Of a stretch of 47,101 nucleotides of DNA, positions 35,177-47,101 are shown one piece after another. The stretch is from Muribaculaceae bacterium (GTDB lineage Bacteria; Bacteroidota; Bacteroidia; Bacteroidales; Muribaculaceae), in NCBI GenBank assembly GCA_022509105.1, contig JAFLTV010000016.1:1-47101 (forward strand). The letters run 5' to 3'. The notes below the pieces were generated by a model. The model ran no database searches and had not been told where the DNA came from. It saw only the letters and a program-made list of their open reading frames with translations. Positions within the stretch are counted from its first letter, which is position 1. Each line of letters begins with the position of its first letter. The position numbers and the translations under genes are program-made.

Positions 35177-36184
35177 TTATTGTTTAAGGCTGGATTTAAG
35201 CTTCTTTTGTTCTCGTTCAAAATTTTCGAGGAAGTGAATTTCTACAGCTGAAAGCTGATATTTGGTTCTATTTTTAAATTTTTCATATTCTTCATCAGCT
35301 TTTATTTTAGCCATTTCTGCAGAAACAGTTCCGGCATGTTTAAGTAATTCAGAACCGGAGAGGGAAAGAAATTCGTCAAGCTTTTTAATCCAATCTTTCA
35401 TATACATTGGTATGTGACGTTCAGCCTGGAGTTCTGCGAAATCAAGATATAAGGTGACTATTCGATTTAATAAATTGAGTTCGGACTCCGATAAATAATT
35501 CTTAGCAATTTCAGCTTCCTGTTTTGTAGGCATCATACCACTCCATGTTGTAAGGCCCATGAAATCTTTTTCAGCATCCGCTCTATTATATATAACTTCG
35601 GCTGCTGTATGGCCATGAGCTGCAAAATGCATCTTGTTTTGTACTGTCTTAAAGAATTGTTGAGTTATTGAGGTTCGGGGATCGTAATCTATACTTAATG
35701 CGTATATTTCAAGGATTTTCCTATAAAATACTTTTTCAGAACTTCGAATATCTCTGATTCTGGCAAGAAGTTCATCGAAATAGTTTCCATGACCGGCATT
35801 TTTCAATAACTCATCATTAAGGGCAAAACCTTTAATCATGTATTCCTTCAAAACTTGAGTTGCCCAAATTCGGAATTGAACTCCCCGGTGAGAATTCACC
35901 CGATATCCGACACTTATAATCATGTCCAGATTGTAATAGGATACTTGATAGGTTTTACCATCCGAGGCAGTTGTTGCATTTTCTGCAACAACTGAATTTC
36001 GGTCTAATTCACCGGATTCTATGATTGCCTTAATATGGCGTGAAATTGTTGATTTATTTCTTTGAAACAAATCCGCCATCTGATCCAAAGTAAGCCATAC
36101 AGATTCATTAGCAAGTCTTACTTCAATCTTAGATTCACCATTCTGAGTTTGATATAATACTATTTCACCTCTATCCATATTCAT
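35177..36184 (-). CDS. RhuM family protein
   Basis: A 335-residue protein of the virulence RhuM family. The N-terminal winged-helix-like part reads SVWLTLDQMADLFQRNKSTISRHIKAI (about 29-55). The family core SYYNLDMIISVGYRVNSHRGVQFRIWATQVLKEYMIKGFALND follows. The C-terminal half is helical (HFAAHGHTAAEVIYNRADAEKDFMGLT). RhuM genes were named from a Salmonella island and are often found beside restriction-modification genes, as here. The biochemical role is not established. It starts 102 bp after the res stop on the same strand, a larger gap than anywhere else in the operon, so it may be separately expressed. The sequence is intact with no frameshift. Confidence 0.85.
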   Translation of the reverse strand: MNMDRGEIVLYQTQNGESKIEVRLANESVWLTLDQMADLFQRNKSTISRHIKAIIESGELDRNSVVAENATTASDGKTYQVSYYNLDMIISVGYRVNSHRGVQFRIWATQVLKEYMIKGFALNDELLKNAGHGNYFDELLARIRDIRSSEKVFYRKILEIYALSIDYDPRTSITQQFFKTVQNKMHFAAHGHTAAEVIYNRADAEKDFMGLTTWSGMMPTKQEAEIAKNYLSESELNLLNRIVTLYLDFAELQAERHIPMYMKDWIKKLDEFLSLSGSELLKHAGTVSAEMAKIKADEEYEKFKNRTKYQLSAVEIHFLENFEREQKKLKSSLKQ

Positions 36185-36286
36185 CCCTTCTTGAATTCAA
36201 ATCGATTGGATCCCACCTTTCTCTGCTTTAGCAGATCCTCAATATTTATCGGTAAAGCCATAAATACAATCTTGAGAACTAAAATT

Positions 36287-38989
36287 TTAAAATAATAGAG
36301 ACTGAGCAAGAAGGTAATAAAAAGAATAAGCTCTGTCAACAAGGCTATGGGGAATCATTACATATTTCCATGGCTTTCCACCATTAGCAAGGGTATATTC
36401 GGAAGCACGCCTGCAAAATTCTTTGGCTGACTCTGCCTTTGCCAATACATCAGCATCCCTAGTATCTTTTTCAGCTTTGGTTTCACACATATAAATGGTG
36501 TCTGCTGTTTCAACTATGAAATCAGGCTCATATCTTTTTGATCCGTTATCCCAATAAATATTGAATTGATTGGGAACAGGACGAAGCCATTTAAGAACCT
36601 CATTACTGTTTTCGAGTACGAAAGCGAAATCAAGTTCTGTGGAACTATCAAATTTGTATTTCGTATAATAGGATTTGTTGAATCCTACAAAAACATATTT
36701 TGGTATAACTGACTTGGGAGATGGTGCCGGTTCATGGAAATCTCTATGCCCCCAATTATTCTCTATTATTGGTTGATCAAGTATTTTTGAAAATGGCAAA
36801 ACCTTATTAATCTTGAATTCACCCGGAATAATTGCATAATGCTCTTTCATCTGCTTATAGATGTTTTCCGCGATACTTTTCCGGAACGGATGGATTCTTT
36901 CATTTAAATCATCATCAGTCTTAATATCATTTTGAATTTTAAGAGCCTCAATTGCCTGACCAATTAATTTGTATAGCAAGTCCGATATTTCATCATAATC
37001 AATATCATCATAGTCAATAAGCATCAGAAGAAGCTGCTCTTTTGCCGGACGTTTTGAACTTCCGTATTTCCCCTCTATGATTTCAAAATCTGTTGTGTCA
37101 TGCAATCCTTGCCGTATAATTTCCCGTCTCAGATCTGCCAATTGGTAACCTTTAGAAGTATCGAGATCAAAATCATTAAAAATGGCTGTTGCCGGTTGTT
37201 GTTCAACCACCAAACGAGGAATCTCAATTACATTATTCTTATAATCTTCCAGTACAGTATTAATTACTTCCTCAATATGCTTTATTTGTATTTCAGCTTC
37301 TTCTTCGGCAAAGAGATTGTCTTTAACACTCTCTCTTATTATTGTTTCAGCCTTTTCTTTAATCTTTTGTTTTCCTTCTTCCGTTTGAATCTCTCCGTAT
37401 GGAACAAAATCTTCAGATACCATAGAGAAAATAGAATCTTCTACAGCCTTGGCTGCTTGTGTTGTATAAAGCTTGGCTTTTTCGTCCAATTCTCCTTGGA
37501 TTTTCTCCATCCGTTGTATGACCTTTTCTTCCGTTGAAGTCGGAGTTATTTCAACTTTTCCACCCCGGTCTCTTTCATCAGGATCATCAAGTTCAATAAA
37601 TGAAACTCTATGCAAAACTGAATTCTTGTCCTGTGCAGCTTCAATCACGCGTTGATAATTGTCATGGGCGATTACAGTTAAAGAATCAACATCTTTATTC
37701 CCGGTACGTTTCCCACCGTATGGCAATCTTAAGCCACGACCGATAGTTTGTTCTATGAGAATAGCAGCATTTGATGCCCTTAATGGAATAATAGTATAGA
37801 GGTTATTCACGTCCCAACCCTCTTTAAGCATATTGACATGAACCACTATCTCGATTTCATTGTCAGGAGATTCCAAAGCTATAAATTGTCTCTCTATATC
37901 TTCATCTTTCTTGGAACTGCTGTCAATTCTTAATACTTTTCCTTTGTAGGCGCCGTGATAAATCCTGTCGCTTAGCAATAATGCTTCTATTTCCTGTGCA
38001 TGTTTGATATCTCGGCATGCTACAAGTATAAATGGTTTTACAACCGGAAGATTATTTTGCTTGGCATATAATTCAATTGCAAGTTTTGTCCTTTCATGAA
38101 CTGTGATGCCATCTTCCAGTTTTACAATTTCAATTTCCTCCGGCTTATAATTTTCTTTATTAAAATTACGTGATTTAGCTACATAAGGAGCTTTTACATA
38201 TTTGCCATCATCAAGGGCTTCTGCCAAATTATATTCAAAGACAATATTTTTGAATGTCTTCCCTTTTTCATCAAATGGAGTGGCGGTCATTTCAAAACCT
38301 AAAACAGGTCTCAATTCATTTATGGCTTTTTTAGAAGCATCCGCATGATAACGGTGGGCCTCATCCATTAAGATGACAAGGTCAGGCAAGCCTGCAAGAT
38401 AATCAAAATATGATTGTCCTAAATATTCTGAAAGTCTTCTCATTCTGGGCAGTCCCTTAGTGCCTTCCTTGCTGTCTTTATTGAATTTCGAGATATTGAA
38501 AATATTTATTTCCACTTCTGAAAAAAGCGACCCGGTTCTTTCATTATAGGTTTCTCCGGTAACTATTCTTGGAGGAGCCGAAACAAATTCACTTATCCCT
38601 TTGAAAACATACTTAGAATAGGAAGTGTCGCTGAAATCCCTTATCAATTTTTCATACAAAGTGAGATTCGGGGCAAGTATGAAGAAATGCTTGATTCCTT
38701 TTTTCAAATAAAGATAGGCAATTATGGCACCCATCAACCGTGTTTTCCCGATACCGGTAGCTATAGAAAAGGCTAATGATGGAAAATCCCGGTCAAAACT
38801 TTTTAAAGAGGGAACAATTTGCTTTACCTTAGCTAAATTAGCCTCAATAAACATTTCAAGCATGTCCGGATCTGTCGGTGGCTTTTGCAAAGAAAGTTTA
38901 TCTACAATCTTTGAAGTAAGTTCCAATGCTTCGGTAAGGGGTTTGCGAAGGGATAATCTCTGGCGTATATAATTGACAGTCGAGTTCAT
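36287..38989 (-). CDS. Type III restriction endonuclease subunit Res-like helicase-nuclease
   Basis: A 900-residue SF2 protein. Walker A is ATGIGKT (77-83), motif II DEAH (209-212) and motif III TATPF (235-239). The second lobe has NMLKEGWDVNNLYTIIPLRASNAAILIEQTIGRGLRLPYG, highly typical of type III Res. The nuclease domain at the end has Asp823, Glu836 and Lys838 (PDF...CETK), a complete PD-(D/E)XK site. It would translocate on or switch along DNA between Mod-recognised sites and cut. Its start overlaps the HNH gene stop by 4 bases (ATGA), so it is translationally coupled to the nuclease gene rather than directly to mod. Confidence 0.92.
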   Translation of the reverse strand: MNSTVNYIRQRLSLRKPLTEALELTSKIVDKLSLQKPPTDPDMLEMFIEANLAKVKQIVPSLKSFDRDFPSLAFSIATGIGKTRLMGAIIAYLYLKKGIKHFFILAPNLTLYEKLIRDFSDTSYSKYVFKGISEFVSAPPRIVTGETYNERTGSLFSEVEINIFNISKFNKDSKEGTKGLPRMRRLSEYLGQSYFDYLAGLPDLVILMDEAHRYHADASKKAINELRPVLGFEMTATPFDEKGKTFKNIVFEYNLAEALDDGKYVKAPYVAKSRNFNKENYKPEEIEIVKLEDGITVHERTKLAIELYAKQNNLPVVKPFILVACRDIKHAQEIEALLLSDRIYHGAYKGKVLRIDSSSKKDEDIERQFIALESPDNEIEIVVHVNMLKEGWDVNNLYTIIPLRASNAAILIEQTIGRGLRLPYGGKRTGNKDVDSLTVIAHDNYQRVIEAAQDKNSVLHRVSFIELDDPDERDRGGKVEITPTSTEEKVIQRMEKIQGELDEKAKLYTTQAAKAVEDSIFSMVSEDFVPYGEIQTEEGKQKIKEKAETIIRESVKDNLFAEEEAEIQIKHIEEVINTVLEDYKNNVIEIPRLVVEQQPATAIFNDFDLDTSKGYQLADLRREIIRQGLHDTTDFEIIEGKYGSSKRPAKEQLLLMLIDYDDIDYDEISDLLYKLIGQAIEALKIQNDIKTDDDLNERIHPFRKSIAENIYKQMKEHYAIIPGEFKINKVLPFSKILDQPIIENNWGHRDFHEPAPSPKSVIPKYVFVGFNKSYYTKYKFDSSTELDFAFVLENSNEVLKWLRPVPNQFNIYWDNGSKRYEPDFIVETADTIYMCETKAEKDTRDADVLAKAESAKEFCRRASEYTLANGGKPWKYVMIPHSLVDRAYSFYYLLAQSLLF

Positions 38990-39633
38990 GCTGTTTTATT
39001 CCAAATAATATATTCTCCAAATTCTTTTAACAAGTCTTCATTAGATTTAATCATCCAGTATTTAAAACCAAGCATTTCTTTATTAATTTGCAAAGCTTCT
39101 ATAATGAGGTTTTTAGTAGTTATAGATGGGCTTTTCTGAAAATCGCGAATGAGCTGTGAGAAATCGTTGACTATACTGACTATATAATCAAAAAATTTCT
39201 TCTCTTTTATCTTTCTGATTTTATCTTTACCATTAAATATTTTATTTAACAGATCTATCGTATTTGTATGTTGGGAAGAAGGATCCGATAACGCCTCAAA
39301 TTTGGCTTGTTTATTATCAAAATCTATTATTTGCCTTATTTCTTCCTCTATGTTGATTGTTACGGGATATAATGTATCATCATAATTTTTAGACTTTTTC
39401 CCATTACAATACCGACATACCAAGAATAAATTATTCCAATTTTGTATTAAATGAGGATAATTATCTTTGCTTTTATGATGTTCTATTTCAAAATCGGTCA
39501 CAAGATAACGTTCGCATAAATAACATTTATCATGCTGGTCGGAGAGCAATTGAATTTTGACGTCTTCCCCATCATAGGCTTTTGTAATCAACAAGGAAGA
39601 AGGAGTAACATTATGTTTATAAACTCTAATCAT
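38986..39633 (-). CDS. HNH endonuclease, PtuB-like
   Basis: A 215-residue protein with a zinc-stabilised HNH domain at about 35-80: Cys37-x2-Cys40, then Glu51-His52-His53, Asn68 and Cys73-x2-Cys76 (CYLCERYL, FEIEHHKSKD, NWNNLFLVCRYCN). This layout matches the PtuB nuclease of Septu and of retron Ec78-type systems. The C-terminal 130 residues are helical and lack known motifs. It lies 9 bp after the AAA ATPase gene, its expected PtuA-like partner, and overlaps res by 4 bases. The pairing with an ATPase is seen in the sequence; a Septu-like mode of action is inferred. Confidence 0.85.
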   Translation of the reverse strand: MIRVYKHNVTPSSLLITKAYDGEDVKIQLLSDQHDKCYLCERYLVTDFEIEHHKSKDNYPHLIQNWNNLFLVCRYCNGKKSKNYDDTLYPVTINIEEEIRQIIDFDNKQAKFEALSDPSSQHTNTIDLLNKIFNGKDKIRKIKEKKFFDYIVSIVNDFSQLIRDFQKSPSITTKNLIIEALQINKEMLGFKYWMIKSNEDLLKEFGEYIIWNKTA

Positions 39634-39642
39634 ACCTTCCCG

Positions 39643-40863
39643 TTATTTTGCATAATTTATCATCAATTGATTGAACTTGCCTTTTATCATAGGAAGAACT
39701 GGCTCCGGAATTGCTTCGAAGTCAGAAATAAGATTTTCCATATGCTTTATCTCCAATTCTGTCTTTTCTTCTTTACCTAAAAGATTTTCAAGTTCTTTGA
39801 GTCTCATTTCCACATAACTAGAATCAGACTTTACATTGAAGTATCCCTCAGCTAAAGATTCATAGGAATATTCTGTTAACTCATCCACTACTTTTTGGTG
39901 CTCCAAATCGTAAGCAACCGCATTTTCTTGAGAACTCAAAACAAATGGAGAATGAGTAGTGACAATAAACTGGATATTAGGGAAAAGGCTTGTCAACAAA
40001 GGTAAAATTGATTTTTGTAATTGAAGATGGAGATGGGTTTCTACTTCATCAATCAGAACTATCCCCGGTTTATTGAATTTCGAGGAAATGGAACCTTTAG
40101 GTTGCATCTTCAATATCAGATCAGCAACAATCTCTAAAACTGCCCTGAATCCATCAGATAATTCTGTGAATTTAAAAGACTTTCCTTCAGTAATTATTGA
40201 AAATGTATAATCTTGATAATGGAAATCCAGTTCTAAAGTTTCATCATCAAAAATTCTACGTAATACATTTTTGAAATTTTCAAACCATTGTTTGAAAACA
40301 TCAGCTTCTTTTATTTTTTCATCATTTCTTGCAAGAGCCTCTTGAATCTTAAGATCAGATAGAAATTTTAATAATTCTGAAATCAAGGAATCCTTTATCT
40401 TTCCTTTTTGACTTAAATTTGGTTTAGTAGGGTTCTTGGGTTCCGTTATTTCATTTTTTCTTGCGGCTTCGTAAAAAGCTAAAATAAAATCACCAGAATT
40501 ATATTTTTTGATCAATTCACTGATATTAAAGAATTCTAGGTCTATTTTGCCTTTTAATTCATTAAGTTTATTTTCACGTTTTATCAAACTTCCTTCCCAT
40601 TTTACTTTTTCTATATCATTTTTTGCCTCGGTAAACCATCTTTGTCTCTGGGCTACTTCTTTTTCAAGACTCATAAAACTAAAGTTAGTGTCAGTCTTGA
40701 TTTTATCAAGATAATTTGAAATAGCATTTAATAACACGGTCTTTCCGCTACCGTTTTTACCTGTTATTATGATATGGGGATTTTTTTCATCTGTAATGGA
40801 GATGTTCAATCCATGTAAATGAAACAAATCCTTGATGTGGATGTTTTTAATGTATGGTTTCAT
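39643..40863 (-). CDS. AAA/ABC-type ATPase, PtuA-like
   Basis: A 406-residue ATPase of the AAA_15/AAA_21 (OLD/RecF/SMC-like) group. Walker A is GKNGSGKT (35-42), the signature LSDGFRAVLE (235-244), Walker B GIVLIDEVE (267-275) and the His switch TTHSPF (302-307). A charged helical insertion (about 60-200) separates the two halves and is shorter than a full SMC coiled coil. In Septu, PtuA forms a complex with the nuclease PtuB and releases it upon infection. The HNH gene directly downstream suggests the same pairing. No TOPRIM nuclease is fused, so this is not a full OLD nuclease. It starts 12 bp after the mod stop. Confidence 0.85.
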   Translation of the reverse strand: MKPYIKNIHIKDLFHLHGLNISITDEKNPHIIITGKNGSGKTVLLNAISNYLDKIKTDTNFSFMSLEKEVAQRQRWFTEAKNDIEKVKWEGSLIKRENKLNELKGKIDLEFFNISELIKKYNSGDFILAFYEAARKNEITEPKNPTKPNLSQKGKIKDSLISELLKFLSDLKIQEALARNDEKIKEADVFKQWFENFKNVLRRIFDDETLELDFHYQDYTFSIITEGKSFKFTELSDGFRAVLEIVADLILKMQPKGSISSKFNKPGIVLIDEVETHLHLQLQKSILPLLTSLFPNIQFIVTTHSPFVLSSQENAVAYDLEHQKVVDELTEYSYESLAEGYFNVKSDSSYVEMRLKELENLLGKEEKTELEIKHMENLISDFEAIPEPVLPMIKGKFNQLMINYAK

Positions 40864-40875
40864 AATTAAATGTTT

Positions 40876-42654
40876 TTATTCATCAAATAAGGTTGGGTTG
40901 TTTTCTTCCGTAAATTCACCGTCAGGGTCGAAGTCTTCCCGTTCTTCGTCTTCGATGTCAGGAACTGACACGATATTAAGCGAGTAGTCGTCTCGGTCAA
41001 ATTCGCAGGTGTCGAGAAGCACTTTAGGGATTTTCTTTATTGTGATATTAGGATATTTATTGCGACATTCCGGCTGAAATTTTGAGCAACAAATAAGAAG
41101 TGAATCATCCTCATCCATCTGTTCATGAATTGTACCAAGCATTTCAGCTGTAACAAGTTGAGTAGTGGTGAAAATATAATCATGTTCTGAACTGTGTCCT
41201 TGTTCCCAATAAATATCCTTATCAGGAGAGTACGTAAACCCTTGATGTTTTGCCATTGCTGCGGCAAGCATATCGGCATTATATTCTTTATTGATGATAA
41301 GGTTGCCATATTTATCGTGATTAAGCAGGCTCGGAGCAAGTTCATAAAACTTAAAGCCACCACCGCCTTTCCAATTTTGGGATTTTGAAATACCAGATTG
41401 ATCATTCCCAGCCACGACTTTGCTAAGTCGATGTACACAATGTGAATATGCATGATTCCCCAACTCAATACCTATCCATCTACGACCCATTTTATGGGCA
41501 ACAGCTGCTGTAGTTCCTGAGCCAAGAAAACTATCAAGAACAATATCTTCAGAAGAAGATGTCGCAAGTTCGATACATCTTTTTAATAACTTTTCCGGCT
41601 TCTTACCTTTTTTGAAAGTAACGTCTCCTTCTTTAGCAATACCTTCCCAAGCTATATCAGTCCATATATCAGTCAGAAGTTTTGTTGCTTGGGGAGTACC
41701 ATCAATTATATGTATATTCTTTGAATAAAAAGCAATTTGTTGTCCATTTATAATAAAAATATCATCATATTCAGACCGTTCAAGCTTAAAAATTTTATCT
41801 TGGTTTATTAAAGAAAGTTTTTTTAATTCTATTACTTGTTGTCCTGCTCCGGAATCACTAATAGCTGTATAACGACATATTCTGTCTGCATTTTCAATTA
41901 TAAATTTGTTATATGACTTTAATATTGCTTCTGGGTTGTCAGAACGAACTTTACCAAATTTTGAAAAAGCTTCTAAGAGAGGTATGAATTCCCAATTTTC
42001 ATAACCCTTTTCATAGTTTAGAATAAACTTATTATATGCATAATCGGGGTTTCTAACCGTTCTAACTCGATTTTCGACCAATTTACTTCTATTTTTAGCA
42101 TAAAAAAGAATATGTTCAGAAGCAACAAACATACCAGGATTAACTGTACTAAATGCAGAAGGAGAACGTGCATCAATGGTGACACGATTCATAAAGTTAT
42201 TCCTTCCAAAAATTTCATCTAAAATAACTTTGCAATAATCCGATTCATTGTCATCCAAATGGACAAATAATGCACCGTCTTCTCTCAAAAGTCTATGTAA
42301 AATTTGGAAACGGCTATACATCATGTTAAGCCACGTTGAATGTTCTATACCATCATCATATCCAATTTCCTTACCATCTGCGTCTATACGTGAACCAGTA
42401 TTGAAGGGAGGATCAATATAAATACACTTGACTGATCCTGTGAAGTTTTCTTCGAGCGCACGGAGAGCCAAAAGGTTATCACCGTGAATAAGCATATTGC
42501 CAGGCCACTGCTTTCCATTGGGAAGAGTGCCGGTTTCCACTTCTCCAAAGCTATATTCCGGGGTGTCGATAAGTAAACGAGGCTCAAGAGCCGCAGGTTC
42601 TTCCTCCTTACCTATCCAAGTCAATTCTAATTTATTTATCTTGTTCTGTGCCAT
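40876..42654 (-). CDS. Type III DNA methyltransferase Mod (beta class, adenine-specific)
   Basis: A 592-residue site-specific methyltransferase. The catalytic motif IV is DPPF (81-84) and precedes the SAM motif DSFLGSGTT (374-382), the beta-class order of type III Mod proteins. The stretch between them (about 155-350) is the target recognition domain and is distinctly more A/T rich than the flanking parts. The C-terminal region ends in an acidic tail. DPPF in place of DPPY is tolerated in this class. It would methylate one strand of an unknown recognition site and guide Res. Its start lies inside the membrane protein gene (23-base overlap). Confidence 0.92.
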   Translation of the reverse strand: MAQNKINKLELTWIGKEEEPAALEPRLLIDTPEYSFGEVETGTLPNGKQWPGNMLIHGDNLLALRALEENFTGSVKCIYIDPPFNTGSRIDADGKEIGYDDGIEHSTWLNMMYSRFQILHRLLREDGALFVHLDDNESDYCKVILDEIFGRNNFMNRVTIDARSPSAFSTVNPGMFVASEHILFYAKNRSKLVENRVRTVRNPDYAYNKFILNYEKGYENWEFIPLLEAFSKFGKVRSDNPEAILKSYNKFIIENADRICRYTAISDSGAGQQVIELKKLSLINQDKIFKLERSEYDDIFIINGQQIAFYSKNIHIIDGTPQATKLLTDIWTDIAWEGIAKEGDVTFKKGKKPEKLLKRCIELATSSSEDIVLDSFLGSGTTAAVAHKMGRRWIGIELGNHAYSHCVHRLSKVVAGNDQSGISKSQNWKGGGGFKFYELAPSLLNHDKYGNLIINKEYNADMLAAAMAKHQGFTYSPDKDIYWEQGHSSEHDYIFTTTQLVTAEMLGTIHEQMDEDDSLLICCSKFQPECRNKYPNITIKKIPKVLLDTCEFDRDDYSLNIVSVPDIEDEEREDFDPDGEFTEENNPTLFDE

Positions 42655-43426
42655 ATTTTAAGCTCTCCAAATATATATTATCTAAGTCAAAGGTCTCACC
42701 AATGCATTCTATAAATTTGGTAATATTAGAAATTTCTTCATCTTTTATATATAGGCCAAGTAATTCGCCGATTAACAAAATAATGAAAAGATCCAAATTA
42801 TTAAAATGAATATCAATGTATTGAGATATATTAGGAATCTCCTTTGTGAATTTATGTTTTAATACAAATCCTTTAAAAATTTCTTTTTCTTTAAAGTATT
42901 TAAAACTATGTATAAATGCAAAGGCATCTTTAAGGAATTCCTTTTGAAATTTATAACATTTGAGTTCAAGTGTTAATAATTGTAAGGCATTTTTTGATTT
43001 TTTATCGAAATTTAAAATAAAATCTATATGAACCTTTTCAACTTCATTGTTTTGTTCTTTTATGCAATTTTCTAAATCTCTTATATCCAATGCATACAGT
43101 ATTCTCTCAGATATTAATTTTAAATTATAAAAATGAATACATCTTAAACAAATTTTACGAAAGTTTAAAAGAGCCTCTTTTTTTATTAATTCTTTGCGAG
43201 AAGTCCTATTTTCCCTTATGGAGTAATAACAAACACATGACGGTACAATTATTGCGATTATAATTCCTAGATAAGAAGCCCAAAATCTTAGCCAATCAGT
43301 AGAATTTCCAATAATTGGAAGATTACAAGGAATTAATAATATGAAATTTAGTAGAATTGGGATAATTATTATACCACTTATAATAATTGTAATAACCATC
43401 CAATATTTTTTAAGCCAGTCTATCAT
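42632..43426 (-). CDS. Two-TM membrane protein of unknown function, embedded in the defence operon
   Basis: A 264-residue protein with two hydrophobic segments near the N-terminus: about residues 8-31 (WMVITIIISGIIIIPILLNF) and 48-69 (ASYLGIIIAIIVPSCVCYY). A long, mostly helical, lysine-rich cytoplasmic region follows. I choose the ATG at 43426, which overlaps the helicase stop as ATGA; a longer TTG start at 43438 is possible. The gene overlaps mod by 23 bases at the other end, so it is translationally knitted into the operon. Base composition is extreme: in 42961-43020 only 12 of 60 bases are G or C. I recognise no family. A membrane-located effector or sensor is a guess. Confidence 0.75.
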   Translation of the reverse strand: MIDWLKKYWMVITIIISGIIIIPILLNFILLIPCNLPIIGNSTDWLRFWASYLGIIIAIIVPSCVCYYSIRENRTSRKELIKKEALLNFRKICLRCIHFYNLKLISERILYALDIRDLENCIKEQNNEVEKVHIDFILNFDKKSKNALQLLTLELKCYKFQKEFLKDAFAFIHSFKYFKEKEIFKGFVLKHKFTKEIPNISQYIDIHFNNLDLFIILLIGELLGLYIKDEEISNITKFIECIGETFDLDNIYLESLKYGTEQDK

Positions 43427-46335
43427 ACTATTCTCCAATGAAAGGTTACTAACTTTGACTGGGTTATTTTCTGTTCGAGCATGGCTTCGACTTTAGAAAG
43501 CAGGGTATCCTTCTTTGAGTCAACTTCATCCTGAGCGTGATAAAGATTGAGTCGTTTTTCACTTCTTTTCTTTTCAAGATCTTTTATCATGCGTTGAATT
43601 TTTACTTTTTCATCAAGCCGTGATGTCTTTTTACTCTCACTTTTACGGAGTTTAATTTCTGCATCTAAATCTCTCAACTCCTTTTCAAGACCCGCTTTTA
43701 CATCTTCAGCCCAATTCTCGAGTTTTTCCATCTCTTCTTCAAAGAAAGAATTGTTACGCTCGGCATTTGCGGCAGTGATTTCGGCTCGCTGGGCGGTAAT
43801 GGCATCGGTGAGAGCGAATGCCGTTTGCTCTGAAAGTTCGGTTTCCAAAGGGCTCTCCGAACCTTTCAACCGCATCATAAATTCGGCGATGTCGGCAGGA
43901 ATTGGTTTACCATTGTCAGTGACAGCAGCATGAAGCAAGATATCCTCTTTCTCGAAAGAGTCGATGGTCAGTTGTTCGACCGTTAACCACCCCGACTGCC
44001 CGACAAGATTCTTAATAAGAGCCACGTTGAGCGGTGAGTTAGTGTAATCAAGCGTTATTTCGGAAATCGGCACGACAGTTTCCTTCAAGCCCGTAAGCAT
44101 ATATTGTGCAAGAGGGTCGCCAATTCGGTATGGCTTAACACCTCCGTCAAGTGCTGTCCGACGGTTCTCCGTGCCGACCATCTTATACACTCCGGGAAAA
44201 TGACGATACCAACTCACAGTGCCGTTCTCTACAAAGGGGCACACCACAAACGAGTGGTCGCGGTCGTTAAAGTCGGCTTGGCCGTCGAAATAACTGCGGG
44301 TAAGTCGCCAAAGGTTTTCTTCAAAAAGATTAAGGTTGTCTTGTGTGGTTTTCAAATCATCACGAAGTTTCTGCTTAACTGACTCATCAAAGTTTTCCAA
44401 AAGAGTGCTCCGCGCCTTTATCATCTTATCGGAAATCTGTTCCTGCAATTCCTCTTGTAAAGCATCAAATGCTTCCTGGATCTCTTTAGGACTTCTGCAC
44501 TGTTGATAGATAAGGGCAATCCTTTTTTCAAAATCAACACCGTTTCCGATGGCTCCCAACACTTCGTCAGAAGCTCCAAACACACCGTTAAATAATTGAA
44601 ATTTCTGGTCTAAAAGTTCATAAACCCTTACATCAGCGGCATTTGATTTATTAAGAAAATTGATAACCACAACATCAAAGTTCTGTCCGTAACGGTGGCA
44701 ACGTCCTATCCGTTGTTCAATCCTTTGAGGATTCCAAGGCATATCATAATTAACAATTAGAGAACAGAATTGAAGGTTTATTCCTTCAGCGGCTGCTTCC
44801 GTTGCAATCATGATGGTGGCTTCATCTCGGAAATAATCTACAAGTGCAGCACGTTTATCGGCAGTCATAGAACCGGTAATCTTGGAAGTGCCTTTATTCT
44901 TTTCTTTCCAATTATTATAAATTTCTTTTGATTTCTTATCAGAATTGGAACCGTTGAAAAGTACAACTTTCCCTTTATAACCACGCTTTTCAAGCAGTTC
45001 AAGAAGGAAATCCTGAGTCCTACGTGATTCTGTAAAGATTAGTGCTTTTTGTGGTGCACCCAATTCTTCGAGTTGCGCGAAGCCCTGATCTAATCCTTCA
45101 AATAATTGTTCTGCTTTTGAATTCTTTTTTATTTTAAAAGCCAGATCCCGGAATTTTTCAAGGTCAACAATTTCTTTCTTTATTCTTTCTATATCTTCTG
45201 GCGACAATGATTCTAGTTCATCAGATTCTTCTTCCTCTTCTTCATTGTCAAACCATTCTTCCGTTTCACTTTCATAATCTTCATAATCGAATTTTATCTC
45301 TTCGATTTCCGGTGTCAACGCACCTTGTTTTTTCAGTTTGTCCTGCAATTTTTCAACTAGAGCGGAAAGGGTACCGTAAATAGCATGGGTTGATGATGCA
45401 AGTAGTTTGCGGAGTATCAATGTCATTAACTGCCTTTGACTATTAGGCAACGCATAAAGTTTTGGTCTTTGAAGATACTCCGAAACTAGATCATAGAGTT
45501 CTTGTTCCTGTTTGGTGGGGAAAAATTCTTGTAGAATTGCAATGCGTTTAGTGTATCTGACATATTCGAGTACCTGACGCCTTAACGTCCTTTTACAAAG
45601 GGGAGCGAGTCTGCGACGCAGATTTTCATAGTCGGAATTATCAAGATTTTTCCCATATTGCATCTTGAAACTCTTAAGGTCGCCAAAAGCATAATCATCA
45701 ATTATCGTGGTAAGGCCATAAAGTTCAAGAATTGAATTCTGTAAAGGAGTTGCAGTAAGAAGAATTTTCTTGCTGTCAACTAAAGCATTCTTTATAGTAT
45801 TTGAAATAACATTAGAGGATTTATAAACGTTGCGAAGTCTATGAGCTTCATCTATTACCACTAAATCCCATTTGGTTTGTTTCAAATATGGTGCCTTTCT
45901 CTTTGCAAACTGATAGGAACAAATAACAATTTCCTCACAATTAAAAGGATTTAGATTTCCTTCTTCTATAAAATGATTGAAAGTTTTTGCCTCCAGGATC
46001 CGAGAGGGCAAAAAGAATTTTTCCTGCAATTCTGAAGCCCATTGTTTTCTAAGATTTGCCGGAGCGATAATTAATAAATGCCGACGATGTTCCGCCCAAA
46101 ATTGAGATAAGATTATTCCAGCCTCAATTGTTTTACCTAATCCTACTTCATCAGCCAATATCGCACCCTTGGACAACGGAGATTTGAACGCGAAAAGTGC
46201 CGCATCAATTTGGTGAGGTGTCAAATCGACTTGCGCATCCTGCAAGGATGCAGTGAGTTTGCTGATACTGTTAGACGGCAAACTTCGGGTTAGCCAATGG
46301 GCGAAATATTTTTGTTGAGCTAATGTAAGGCTCAT
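43423..46335 (-). CDS. SNF2/RapA-type DNA helicase (translocase) of the defence operon
   Basis: A 970-residue SF2 ATPase. Walker A is DEVGLGKT (62-69) and motif II DEAH (162-165). The second lobe has FNGSNSDKKS, ATEAAAEGINLQFCSLIVNYDMPWNPQRIEQRIGR and HRYGQ (motifs V and VI), as in RapA/HepA and DISARM DrmD proteins. An acidic insertion (DYEDYESETEEWFDNEEEEEE) lies near residue 370 and a long charged coiled coil occupies the last 150 residues. No nuclease motif is visible. The ATG at 46335 is preferred over an upstream TTG (46407), because the extra residues lie in the promoter leader and include an inverted repeat. It is the first gene of the operon and overlaps the next by 4 bases. Confidence 0.88.
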   Translation of the reverse strand: MSLTLAQQKYFAHWLTRSLPSNSISKLTASLQDAQVDLTPHQIDAALFAFKSPLSKGAILADEVGLGKTIEAGIILSQFWAEHRRHLLIIAPANLRKQWASELQEKFFLPSRILEAKTFNHFIEEGNLNPFNCEEIVICSYQFAKRKAPYLKQTKWDLVVIDEAHRLRNVYKSSNVISNTIKNALVDSKKILLTATPLQNSILELYGLTTIIDDYAFGDLKSFKMQYGKNLDNSDYENLRRRLAPLCKRTLRRQVLEYVRYTKRIAILQEFFPTKQEQELYDLVSEYLQRPKLYALPNSQRQLMTLILRKLLASSTHAIYGTLSALVEKLQDKLKKQGALTPEIEEIKFDYEDYESETEEWFDNEEEEEESDELESLSPEDIERIKKEIVDLEKFRDLAFKIKKNSKAEQLFEGLDQGFAQLEELGAPQKALIFTESRRTQDFLLELLEKRGYKGKVVLFNGSNSDKKSKEIYNNWKEKNKGTSKITGSMTADKRAALVDYFRDEATIMIATEAAAEGINLQFCSLIVNYDMPWNPQRIEQRIGRCHRYGQNFDVVVINFLNKSNAADVRVYELLDQKFQLFNGVFGASDEVLGAIGNGVDFEKRIALIYQQCRSPKEIQEAFDALQEELQEQISDKMIKARSTLLENFDESVKQKLRDDLKTTQDNLNLFEENLWRLTRSYFDGQADFNDRDHSFVVCPFVENGTVSWYRHFPGVYKMVGTENRRTALDGGVKPYRIGDPLAQYMLTGLKETVVPISEITLDYTNSPLNVALIKNLVGQSGWLTVEQLTIDSFEKEDILLHAAVTDNGKPIPADIAEFMMRLKGSESPLETELSEQTAFALTDAITAQRAEITAANAERNNSFFEEEMEKLENWAEDVKAGLEKELRDLDAEIKLRKSESKKTSRLDEKVKIQRMIKDLEKKRSEKRLNLYHAQDEVDSKKDTLLSKVEAMLEQKITQSKLVTFHWRIV

Positions 46336-46845: not shown

Positions 46846-46941
46846 AATAGGTCTTTGCTTCCCCAAACCTTCCCCTTCTGTTGACACCGAAGTGAGCCTT
46901 CTTTCGACGTCCCAAGCTTAGTCTTTCGTCGCAGGTGCCCC

Positions 46942-46976
46942 AATTCCTAATTCCTAATTGCTAATTCCTAATTAAT
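46942..46976 (+). repeat. Heptamer tandem repeat AATTCCT
   Basis: Four consecutive 7-base units: AATTCCT, AATTCCT, AATTGCT, AATTCCT, then a decayed AATTAAT. The third copy differs by one base. Confidence 0.85.
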
Positions 46977-47018
46977 AGGATGGGATGAAAATGACAATTC
47001 CTCATCTTTTTCTCTTAT

Positions 47019-47026: not shown

Positions 47027-47101
47027 CACTACTGAATCAGTCCTCTCCATGGCCCGGTGCCGGTATAAAGTCCGGCTTAGGATGGAATCTACCATGGTGA
47101 T

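Follow-up and report, generated by a model that had tools for sequence, protein, structure and literature searches.

Septu genes within an SNF2-linked type III restriction-modification operon of a Muribaculaceae bacterium

The operon and its products

The contig JAFLTV010000016.1 (assembly GCA_022509105.1) of a Muribaculaceae bacterium carries a defence operon in which a Septu pair, the ATPase PtuA and the nuclease PtuB (together PtuAB), lies between the methyltransferase (Mod) and the restriction subunit (Res) of a type III restriction-modification (R-M) system headed by an SNF2 family helicase. The whole contig of 47,101 bp was analysed and is called the window here; the assembly consists of 79 contigs and is 88.85% complete. 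Seven open reading frames (ORFs), all on the minus strand, were confirmed at the positions given by an earlier note on this DNA (Table 1). The first six overlap or are at most 12 bp apart, as the note had stated (gaps of -4, -23, +12, +9 and -4 bp, in order from SNF2 to Res), while the last gene, RhuM, is spaced more loosely, 102 bp after Res. We read the locus as a type III R-M operon with a linked SNF2 gene that houses a Septu module, and not as an obligate seven-gene system, DISARM or Hma. The interval from SNF2 to Mod is referred to as slot A, the interval from Mod to Res as slot B, and the genes in these slots as cargo.

Table 1. Genes of the operon, from the first to the last
Gene product	Position	Strand	Basis of assignment
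SNF2/RapA-like, DrmD-related helicase, first core gene	43423..46335	-	Pfam, PADLOC, NCBIfam
264-aa protein with two transmembrane segments, slot A cargo	42632..43426	-	relatives by sequence; segments read from the sequence
Mod, type III DNA methyltransferase, second core gene	40876..42654	-	PADLOC, Pfam, motifs
PtuA, ABC/OLD-like ATPase of Septu, slot B cargo	39643..40863	-	PADLOC, solved chains
PtuB, HNH nuclease of Septu, slot B cargo	38986..39633	-	motifs, model and fold search
Res, type III restriction subunit (superfamily 2 helicase and PD-ExK), last core gene	36287..38989	-	Pfam, PADLOC, motifs
RhuM, trailing gene, probable cargo	35177..36184	-	Pfam, PADLOC

Six of the seven proteins have strong family matches and are not chance ORFs; the transmembrane (TM) protein has sequence relatives. 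The SNF2 protein matches Pfam SNF2-rel_dom (3.2e-34) and has DrmD as its best PADLOC family (1.5e-200), in agreement with the SNF2/RapA-like leader proposed in the earlier note. It scores below both NCBIfam cut-offs for DrmD (673.2 bits against 950 for DrmD_b, 268.7 against 610 for the other model). A start at the methionine at 46335 fits most full-length relatives, with alignments beginning around residue 25 of the TTG-extended ORF. The type III identity of Mod and Res and the RhuM assignment were likewise borne out. Mod is recognised by PADLOC MTase_III (1.3e-156) and Pfam N6_N4_Mtase (9.7e-39), and matches the structures 6k0w, 4zcf and 7dsu. Res is recognised by Pfam ResIII (1e-21) and PADLOC REase_III (4.2e-155); its Pfam RE_endonuc score of 23.2 bits is slightly below the cut-off of 23.4, and its NCBIfam matches are far below theirs. 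RhuM matches Pfam Virulence_RhuM (5.6e-113) and PADLOC PDC-S05 (1.7e-157).

The Septu-like ATPase/HNH pair of the earlier note holds as well. PtuA matches the PADLOC model of that name (1.4e-114) and, by profile, solved PtuA chains including 8ee4 and 9kjx; at 406 aa it is shorter than the matched chains (456-552 aa). No PDB sequence match was found for PtuB, Res or RhuM, and PtuB was assigned by a structure model and a fold search. The NCBIfam PtuA and PtuB models, which were built for retron Ec78, score under their cut-offs (117.2 against 500 and 33.7 against 150 bits). A type I-A retron was considered and rejected: there is no reverse transcriptase family among the seven genes, and no RVT_1 match in the 88.85% complete genome (three of 14 control genomes were positive).

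Motifs were searched in SNF2, Mod, PtuA, PtuB and Res with patterns that we take to be the usual ones for these families. SNF2 has GLGKT, DEAH, LTATP and QRIGRCHRYGQ. In Mod, DPPF precedes DSFLGSGT, which is the beta-class order. PtuA has GKNGSGKT, LIDEVETHLH and TTHSP, and the adjacent PtuB has CxxC, EH and N-x-LFL-x-C-x-YCN, so that a PtuA ATPase and a PtuB HNH protein, each with its motifs, stand side by side as in Septu. Res combines the superfamily 2 motor motifs GIGKT, DEAH, TATP and QTIGRGLR with a PD-ExK signature (PDF...ETK). The locus is real, and the catalytic motifs, which look intact according to the earlier note, are so in the five proteins searched. Residues ~181-350 in the middle of Mod form its least conserved inner part in a conservation profile of 29 Mods, and are probably the recognition domain.

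Because the contig ends at position 47101, sequence upstream of this point cannot be read. A short repeated stretch of AATTAG type lies near the contig end, upstream of the operon (46940-46980). A promoter and terminator scan of the locus gave a signal near shuffle level and was not used.

A recurrent SNF2-Mod-Res core with two slots

The SNF2 protein was found in 15 of 393 genomes of the order (E <= 1e-100) and in 26 of 395 genomes of the phylum (E <= 1e-120), the genome of the window included in both counts. In the order, the other copies occupy 15 places (one in two pieces) in 14 genomes, with 43-76% identity. For labelling, slot A was searched to 7 kb and slot B to 5 kb, and a same-strand ORF of at least 850 aa after Mod was taken as Res. 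The window excluded, 42 stretches around SNF2 matches contained 31 with a labelled Mod and 25 with a complete SNF2-Mod-Res core; the remaining stretches break off early or have no labelled Mod or Res. In L104, L106 and L043 (the loci of this study are numbered L001-L153, L001 being the window), Res is short or cut off. The Res family was found in nine of the 393 genomes of the order.

Cargo is present in slot A of 14, in slot B of 15 and in at least one slot of 22 of the 25 complete cores, including all 18 cores with a short Mod. The genes in complete loci are closely packed: 166 gaps (plasmid loci L119, L121, L122 and L153 left aside) have a median of 4 bp, and 136 are 30 bp or shorter, which places the cargo inside the operons. 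A subclass with a long Mod (L109, L111, L140, L141 and L144-L146) has a Mod of ~1,000-1,120 aa, a longer Res-like protein and fewer cargo genes, with cargo in four of the seven loci.

The same core was also present in eight plasmid records, chosen among 20 listed of 844 matching, from Rhizobium, Cupriavidus, Deinococcus, Hymenobacter, Blastomonas, Salmonella, E. coli (with SNF2 in pieces) and a planctomycete. By our own ORFs together with the record annotation, seven of the eight carry cargo; by the ORF caller alone the count is five, as this simple caller missed annotated cargo in two GC-rich plasmids, a DUF262 protein of slot B in L119 and AIPR, VapC and further slot A proteins in L121. The slots of L120 are empty by both ORFs and annotation. 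Five of the plasmids, those of Rhizobium, Cupriavidus, Salmonella, E. coli and the planctomycete (L119, L120, L124, L152 and L153), have a small helix-turn-helix (HTH) gene, possibly a regulator, in front of SNF2; in the window, no gene of this kind was recognised in the ~770 bp that lead up to SNF2. Two of these records, from Rhizobium and Salmonella (L119 and L124), also have a recombinase-family gene no more than ~1.1 kb upstream of SNF2. A phage search with SNF2 gave no match over 80% of the query.

The cargo

Cassettes were grouped by blastp clusters, and representatives were matched in Pfam or PADLOC. The repertoire comprises an AAA_21 ATPase with a DUF4276 protein (PADLOC HEC-01A/B), a DUF1016/YhcG nuclease (PDC-S02), an HTH/IrrE protein with a small partner (PD-Lambda-2_B), a DUF3800 protein (PDC-M04A) with a partner, a Bro-N protein (PDC-S13), an LmuB-like ATPase with an AIPR protein, Abi_2 (AbiD), Fic and a Schlafen-type AlbA_2 protein. 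In the planctomycete plasmid, slot A holds SIR2 with a HerA-like ATPase, and slot B holds GmrSD_N. Several cargo proteins have no Pfam match at 1e-4, among them both slot A genes of L030 and of L033.

Three cassettes occur in either slot, in different loci. The AAA/DUF4276 cassette occupies slot A in L039 and L101 and slot B in L021, L059 and L134; the DUF3800 pair occupies slot A in L125 and L134 and slot B in L101 and L115; the Bro-N-like cassette occupies slot A in L102, L127 and L128 and slot B in L108. Other cassettes keep to one slot, with DUF1016 in slot B in six of six and HTH/IrrE in slot A in five of five cases. RhuM, which trails the operon in the window, occupies slot A of L133, and is probably cargo in the window as well.

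The TM protein in slot A of the window has no match in Pfam, PADLOC or NCBIfam. A first search found three proteins including the query itself, and a 67% relative lies on a 31-kb metagenome contig; with an alignment of six proteins as the query (the window protein, two relatives and the slot A proteins of L100, L033 and L039), the family grew to 42 proteins of 148-273 aa, the window's own counted. The N-terminal part is similar to that of two slot A proteins, with 37% over 86 aa for L100 and 44% over 68 aa for L033; the slot A proteins of L033 and L039 also resemble each other. Since the likeness to L100 and L033 lies mostly in the N-terminal two-TM part, clustering at 50% coverage separates these proteins. 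At the C-terminus, 28 of the 42 members have a T/A-E/K-Q pattern, and the tail of the window protein is an other-frame reading of the overlapping mod start. The slot A genes of L039 and L047 also overlap mod and have similar C-terminal ends, so that many other relatives probably precede mod, too. A structure model of the protein is all-helical (predicted local distance difference test score 78.6) and had no Foldseek match at E <= 0.001. The family (P0124-P0162) looks mosaic, with a near-identical C-terminal part on differing two-TM N-terminal parts, as in P0126 and P0127.

PtuAB inside and outside the core

A scan of genome contigs with a single PtuA sequence found nothing; an alignment of 39 PtuAs did find matches. 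The survey covers the best 80 of 185 confirmed PtuA loci in the named genome collection, the window not counted, labelled by tblastn with the seven window proteins and gene by gene. PtuAB lies between Mod and Res in eight of the 80 loci (L021, L030, L033, L038, L039, L043, L047 and L059). SNF2 is upstream in six of these; none is shown in L038 and L047. A 372-aa gene separates Mod from PtuA in L038, the AAA/DUF4276 pair separates PtuB from Res in L021 and L059, and Res is in pieces close to the contig end in L043.

Two further PtuAB loci, L028 and L031, have decayed cores, in which the beginning of SNF2 is joined to the last part of Mod and everything between has disappeared (L028:8637-9968 and L031:9069-9928). 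PtuA is open in both, PtuB is open in L028 and split in L031, and Res appears interrupted in both. In L052, PtuAB precedes SNF2, which is followed by Mod and Res. L026, L034 and L099 have weaker Mod or SNF2 matches (25-28% identity). L026 is perhaps a case of PtuAB in another type III operon: a divergent 673-aa Mod is followed by PtuAB at the contig end (L026:3328-7288), and the preceding 948-aa ORF is not this SNF2.

In the remaining 66 of the 80 loci, tblastn gave no SNF2, Mod or Res match in the flanking sequence retrieved, which is short in some cases. Neighbouring genes were scanned in seven of these loci, and the ten proteins concerned are all members of ordinary families, among them a carboxyltransferase, GH97, a lyase, a citrate transporter, a peptidase and a DbpA-type helicase. 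An order-wide PtuA search (E <= 1e-40) gave matches at 18 places, distributed over 13 other genomes; no Mod or Res is present there, in flanks of ~1.5 kb or less, which is too little to use. In a plasmid search with PtuA, every match was below 60% identity. A metagenome contig of 9 kb carries a PtuA at 86%.

Seen from the SNF2 side, PtuAB is present in none of the 25 other complete cores. The exact set of seven genes, whose recurrence the earlier note had proposed to examine, was found in no other locus among L001-L153; what does recur is the order Mod-PtuAB-Res.

Exchange of modules

On a tree of 77 PtuAs, built by a quick method with a single support measure and with L026 and L052 counted as free, the embedded state changes at least eight times, and six of these changes are forced by well-supported branches. 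When loci clipped by contig ends are left out, the count is still eight (44 free, 11 embedded and 22 uncounted, including L026 and L052).

The clearest evidence for exchange comes from two comparisons at the same site. L024 and L030 share an upstream carboxyltransferase region (89% DNA identity) and a downstream GH97 region (86%). Between these flanks, L024 has PtuAB alone; in L030 the interval is filled by a 490-aa ORF followed by SNF2, a pair of slot A genes, Mod, PtuAB and Res. The PtuAB stretches are 79% identical, and a short common leader precedes PtuA. L021 and L059 are alike in SNF2 (98.6%), Res (96.9%), the AAA/DUF4276 pair (97-99%) and two downstream genes (94%), but have diverged in Mod (59%), PtuA (53%) and PtuB (54%), and they differ in slot A, which contains a 283-aa gene in one of them and no gene in the other. 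The core nearest to that of the window by SNF2 is L052 (85%). At the DNA level, SNF2, both ends of Mod and Res align between the two; the alignment is interrupted at both slots and in the central part of Mod.

Pairwise distances among the core proteins agree across 28 loci (SNF2-Mod r 0.61, SNF2-Res r 0.72, Mod-Res r 0.92; p 0.0005 each). Across eight PtuAB loci, PtuA distances agree weakly with those of Mod (r 0.20, p 0.16) and Res (r 0.39, p 0.06), as do PtuB distances with those of Mod (r 0.26, p 0.09).

Discussion

We consider it likely that the SNF2-linked type III R-M operon is a chassis with two exchangeable cargo slots, and that the window represents a case with Septu embedded in slot B. 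The order of the core recurs, the content of the slots varies, PtuAB is found without the core elsewhere, it has repeatedly joined or left the core, and exchange has taken place at single sites. Judged by gene order, the PtuA tree and the same-site comparison, PtuAB is a separable module. The earlier note had wavered between a single integrated system and a modular fusion, and of these the fusion is supported and the integrated system is not. It had also reasoned that absence of the ATPase, HNH and membrane genes from most related mod-res loci would make the arrangement a one-off insertion. PtuAB is indeed absent from the 25 other complete cores found with SNF2, but with eight embedded loci and at least eight changes on the tree its insertion is not a one-off.

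Several observations weigh against the chassis reading. Inside the chassis, PtuAB is always in slot B (nine of nine loci including the window, and never in slot A), and thus its placement is not free. Both slots are empty in three of the 25 complete cores, all with a long Mod (~1,000 aa). Four loci (L115-L118) have Mod and Res, and no SNF2 in the stretch taken; in two of them (L115 and L118) there are genes between Mod and Res, and Mod-Res cargo is therefore independent of SNF2. With shuffled labels, the PtuA tree requires 10.5 changes on average and eight or fewer in only five of 500 shuffles, hence the embedded state is partly clustered, and gain and loss cannot be told apart from the tree. 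PtuB and Res distances do agree in the eight-locus set (r 0.38, p 0.04), but so little agreement is seen in the same loci even for Mod-Res (r 0.37, p 0.03) and PtuA-PtuB (r 0.17, p 0.27) that the distance test is weak either way. Finally, many of the surveyed loci are contigs of metagenome-assembled genomes.

It appears improbable that PtuAB, SNF2, the membrane protein and Mod-Res form one integrated machine with two nucleases. The tight spacing of the genes in the window and the invariable use of slot B would fit such a machine, as would the recurrence of AAA-HNH pairs as partners of R-M-like systems in the available text of PMC12839542. However, the 25 other complete cores do without PtuAB, most PtuA loci have no sign of the core in their flanks (some of them short) and have ordinary neighbours where these were scanned, and L024 has PtuAB alone where L030 has the whole operon. 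A chance neighbourhood or an assembly join can practically be dismissed. The assembly is a draft in 79 contigs, but the first six genes are too closely joined for this explanation, and the order of the core, also with PtuAB inside, recurs in other assemblies. A variant of class 1 DISARM or of Hma is very unlikely, too. DrmD is the nearest family of the window SNF2, but the protein misses both DrmD cut-offs. DrmB bears an MZB/DUF1998 domain, and no match to this domain was found in the 88.85% complete genome, while eight of 14 control genomes were positive. Septu embedded in Hma has been published (PMC12255303, in the part available), but the same genome has no match to DUF499 (HmaC), for which one of the 14 controls was positive, and the only methyltransferase of the operon is of the DPPF N6/N4 type, whereas the Hma enzyme is described as an m5C methyltransferase in the accessible text of PMC8565338.

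A more specific idea is that PtuAB acts as a guardian, restrained by or sensing Mod-Res-SNF2 and firing once a phage has blocked restriction, in a type III parallel to PrrC in EcoprrI. This is a special case of the modular reading, with which its probability overlaps, and we regard it as a tentative possibility. PtuAB lies between Mod and Res in all nine chassis loci, and PrrC and PARIS are described as guardians of R-M systems (PMC12707154, as far as its available text goes). A suitable activity has also been reported: as excerpted, PMC11555353 links the PtuAB of retron Eco7 to loss of tRNA-Tyr with growth arrest, leaving direct action open, and PMC13096335 reports that Septu EcB88 cuts the variable loop of tRNA-Tyr upon infection, with the Walker and HNH residues required. 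On the other hand, PtuAB loci without the core show that no such partner is needed for persistence, PtuA distances agree weakly with those of Mod and Res, and the HTH/IrrE and DUF1016 cassettes keep to one slot just as PtuAB does.

Type III Mod methylates DNA, and the Mod-Res complex cleaves unmodified DNA. In the chassis reading, Mod would methylate the host sites and Mod-Res would cut incoming unmodified DNA, with SNF2, judged by its family, as a translocase that may aid the core. PtuAB is probably expressed from the same transcript. From the published PtuAB activities, we would expect restriction to come first and PtuAB, in response to infection, to form a second line that is independent and probably abortive. 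The PtuB nuclease may disable the infected cell via tRNA or nicked DNA; published PtuABs differ in this respect, and that of retron Eco4 likely does not target tRNA according to the same excerpt of PMC11555353. By residing in the operon, PtuAB would profit from shared expression and from the way in which an R-M system secures its retention.

The embedding of defence modules is an already published theme. Complete defence modules inside the operon of another system are reportedly described in a 2024 preprint by Payne et al. (10.1101/2024.01.29.577857), from which the HEC and PDC names of PADLOC presumably originate. RhuM of the window and several cargo proteins score with these families; compared with published embedded systems, the host is here an SNF2-linked type III R-M system with two slots. 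EcoP15I and Mbo45V have the same Mod and Res families with the same motif order, but the window operon adds the SNF2 leader and the genes between mod and res. From type I Septu, the window PtuAB differs by its position between Mod and Res, besides the short PtuA. In the accessible parts of the literature, type I R-M is reported as a host of DarTG2 (PMC12255303, in addition to the case in Hma), of TgvAB (PMC11411939) and, in Pseudomonas islands, of second systems (PMC12629846), and backup OLD-ABC/HNH pairs are reported in BREX and related systems (PMC12839542); Hma itself is described in PMC8565338. PrrC in EcoprrI, DarTG2 and TgvAB are likewise second defence modules inside an R-M operon, but the hosts are of type I and the effectors are others, and in the text available the guardian link is made for PrrC among them. 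A 2008 study (PMC2292703, seen in excerpt) noted SWI2/SNF2 helicases with HNH or EcoRII-like nucleases in a different setting, next to MORC genes. No description of an SNF2-type III core with two cargo slots was recognised in the searched literature, which was judged mostly by titles and the opening of abstracts and did not extend to bioRxiv and most subscription papers; this is no proof of absence.

It is conceivable, if rather doubtful, that SNF2-Mod-Res is a distinct and widespread chassis with cassette-exchange slots in which PtuAB of slot B is wired as a type III counterpart of PrrC. If so, PtuAB would be silent as long as restriction works, and would disable the cell once a phage blocks it. 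The order Mod-PtuAB-Res makes the idea of a guardian of restriction testable beyond type I systems. The slots are a practical hunting ground for new defence genes, as several occupants have no Pfam match. More generally, the locus class is a countable example of how defence islands are built, with a stable frame of motor, methylase and nuclease and two places for the exchange of modules, and the exchange is directly visible in genome pairs at one chromosomal site. The interest lies in this exchange pattern of the whole class, more than in the single combination found in the window.

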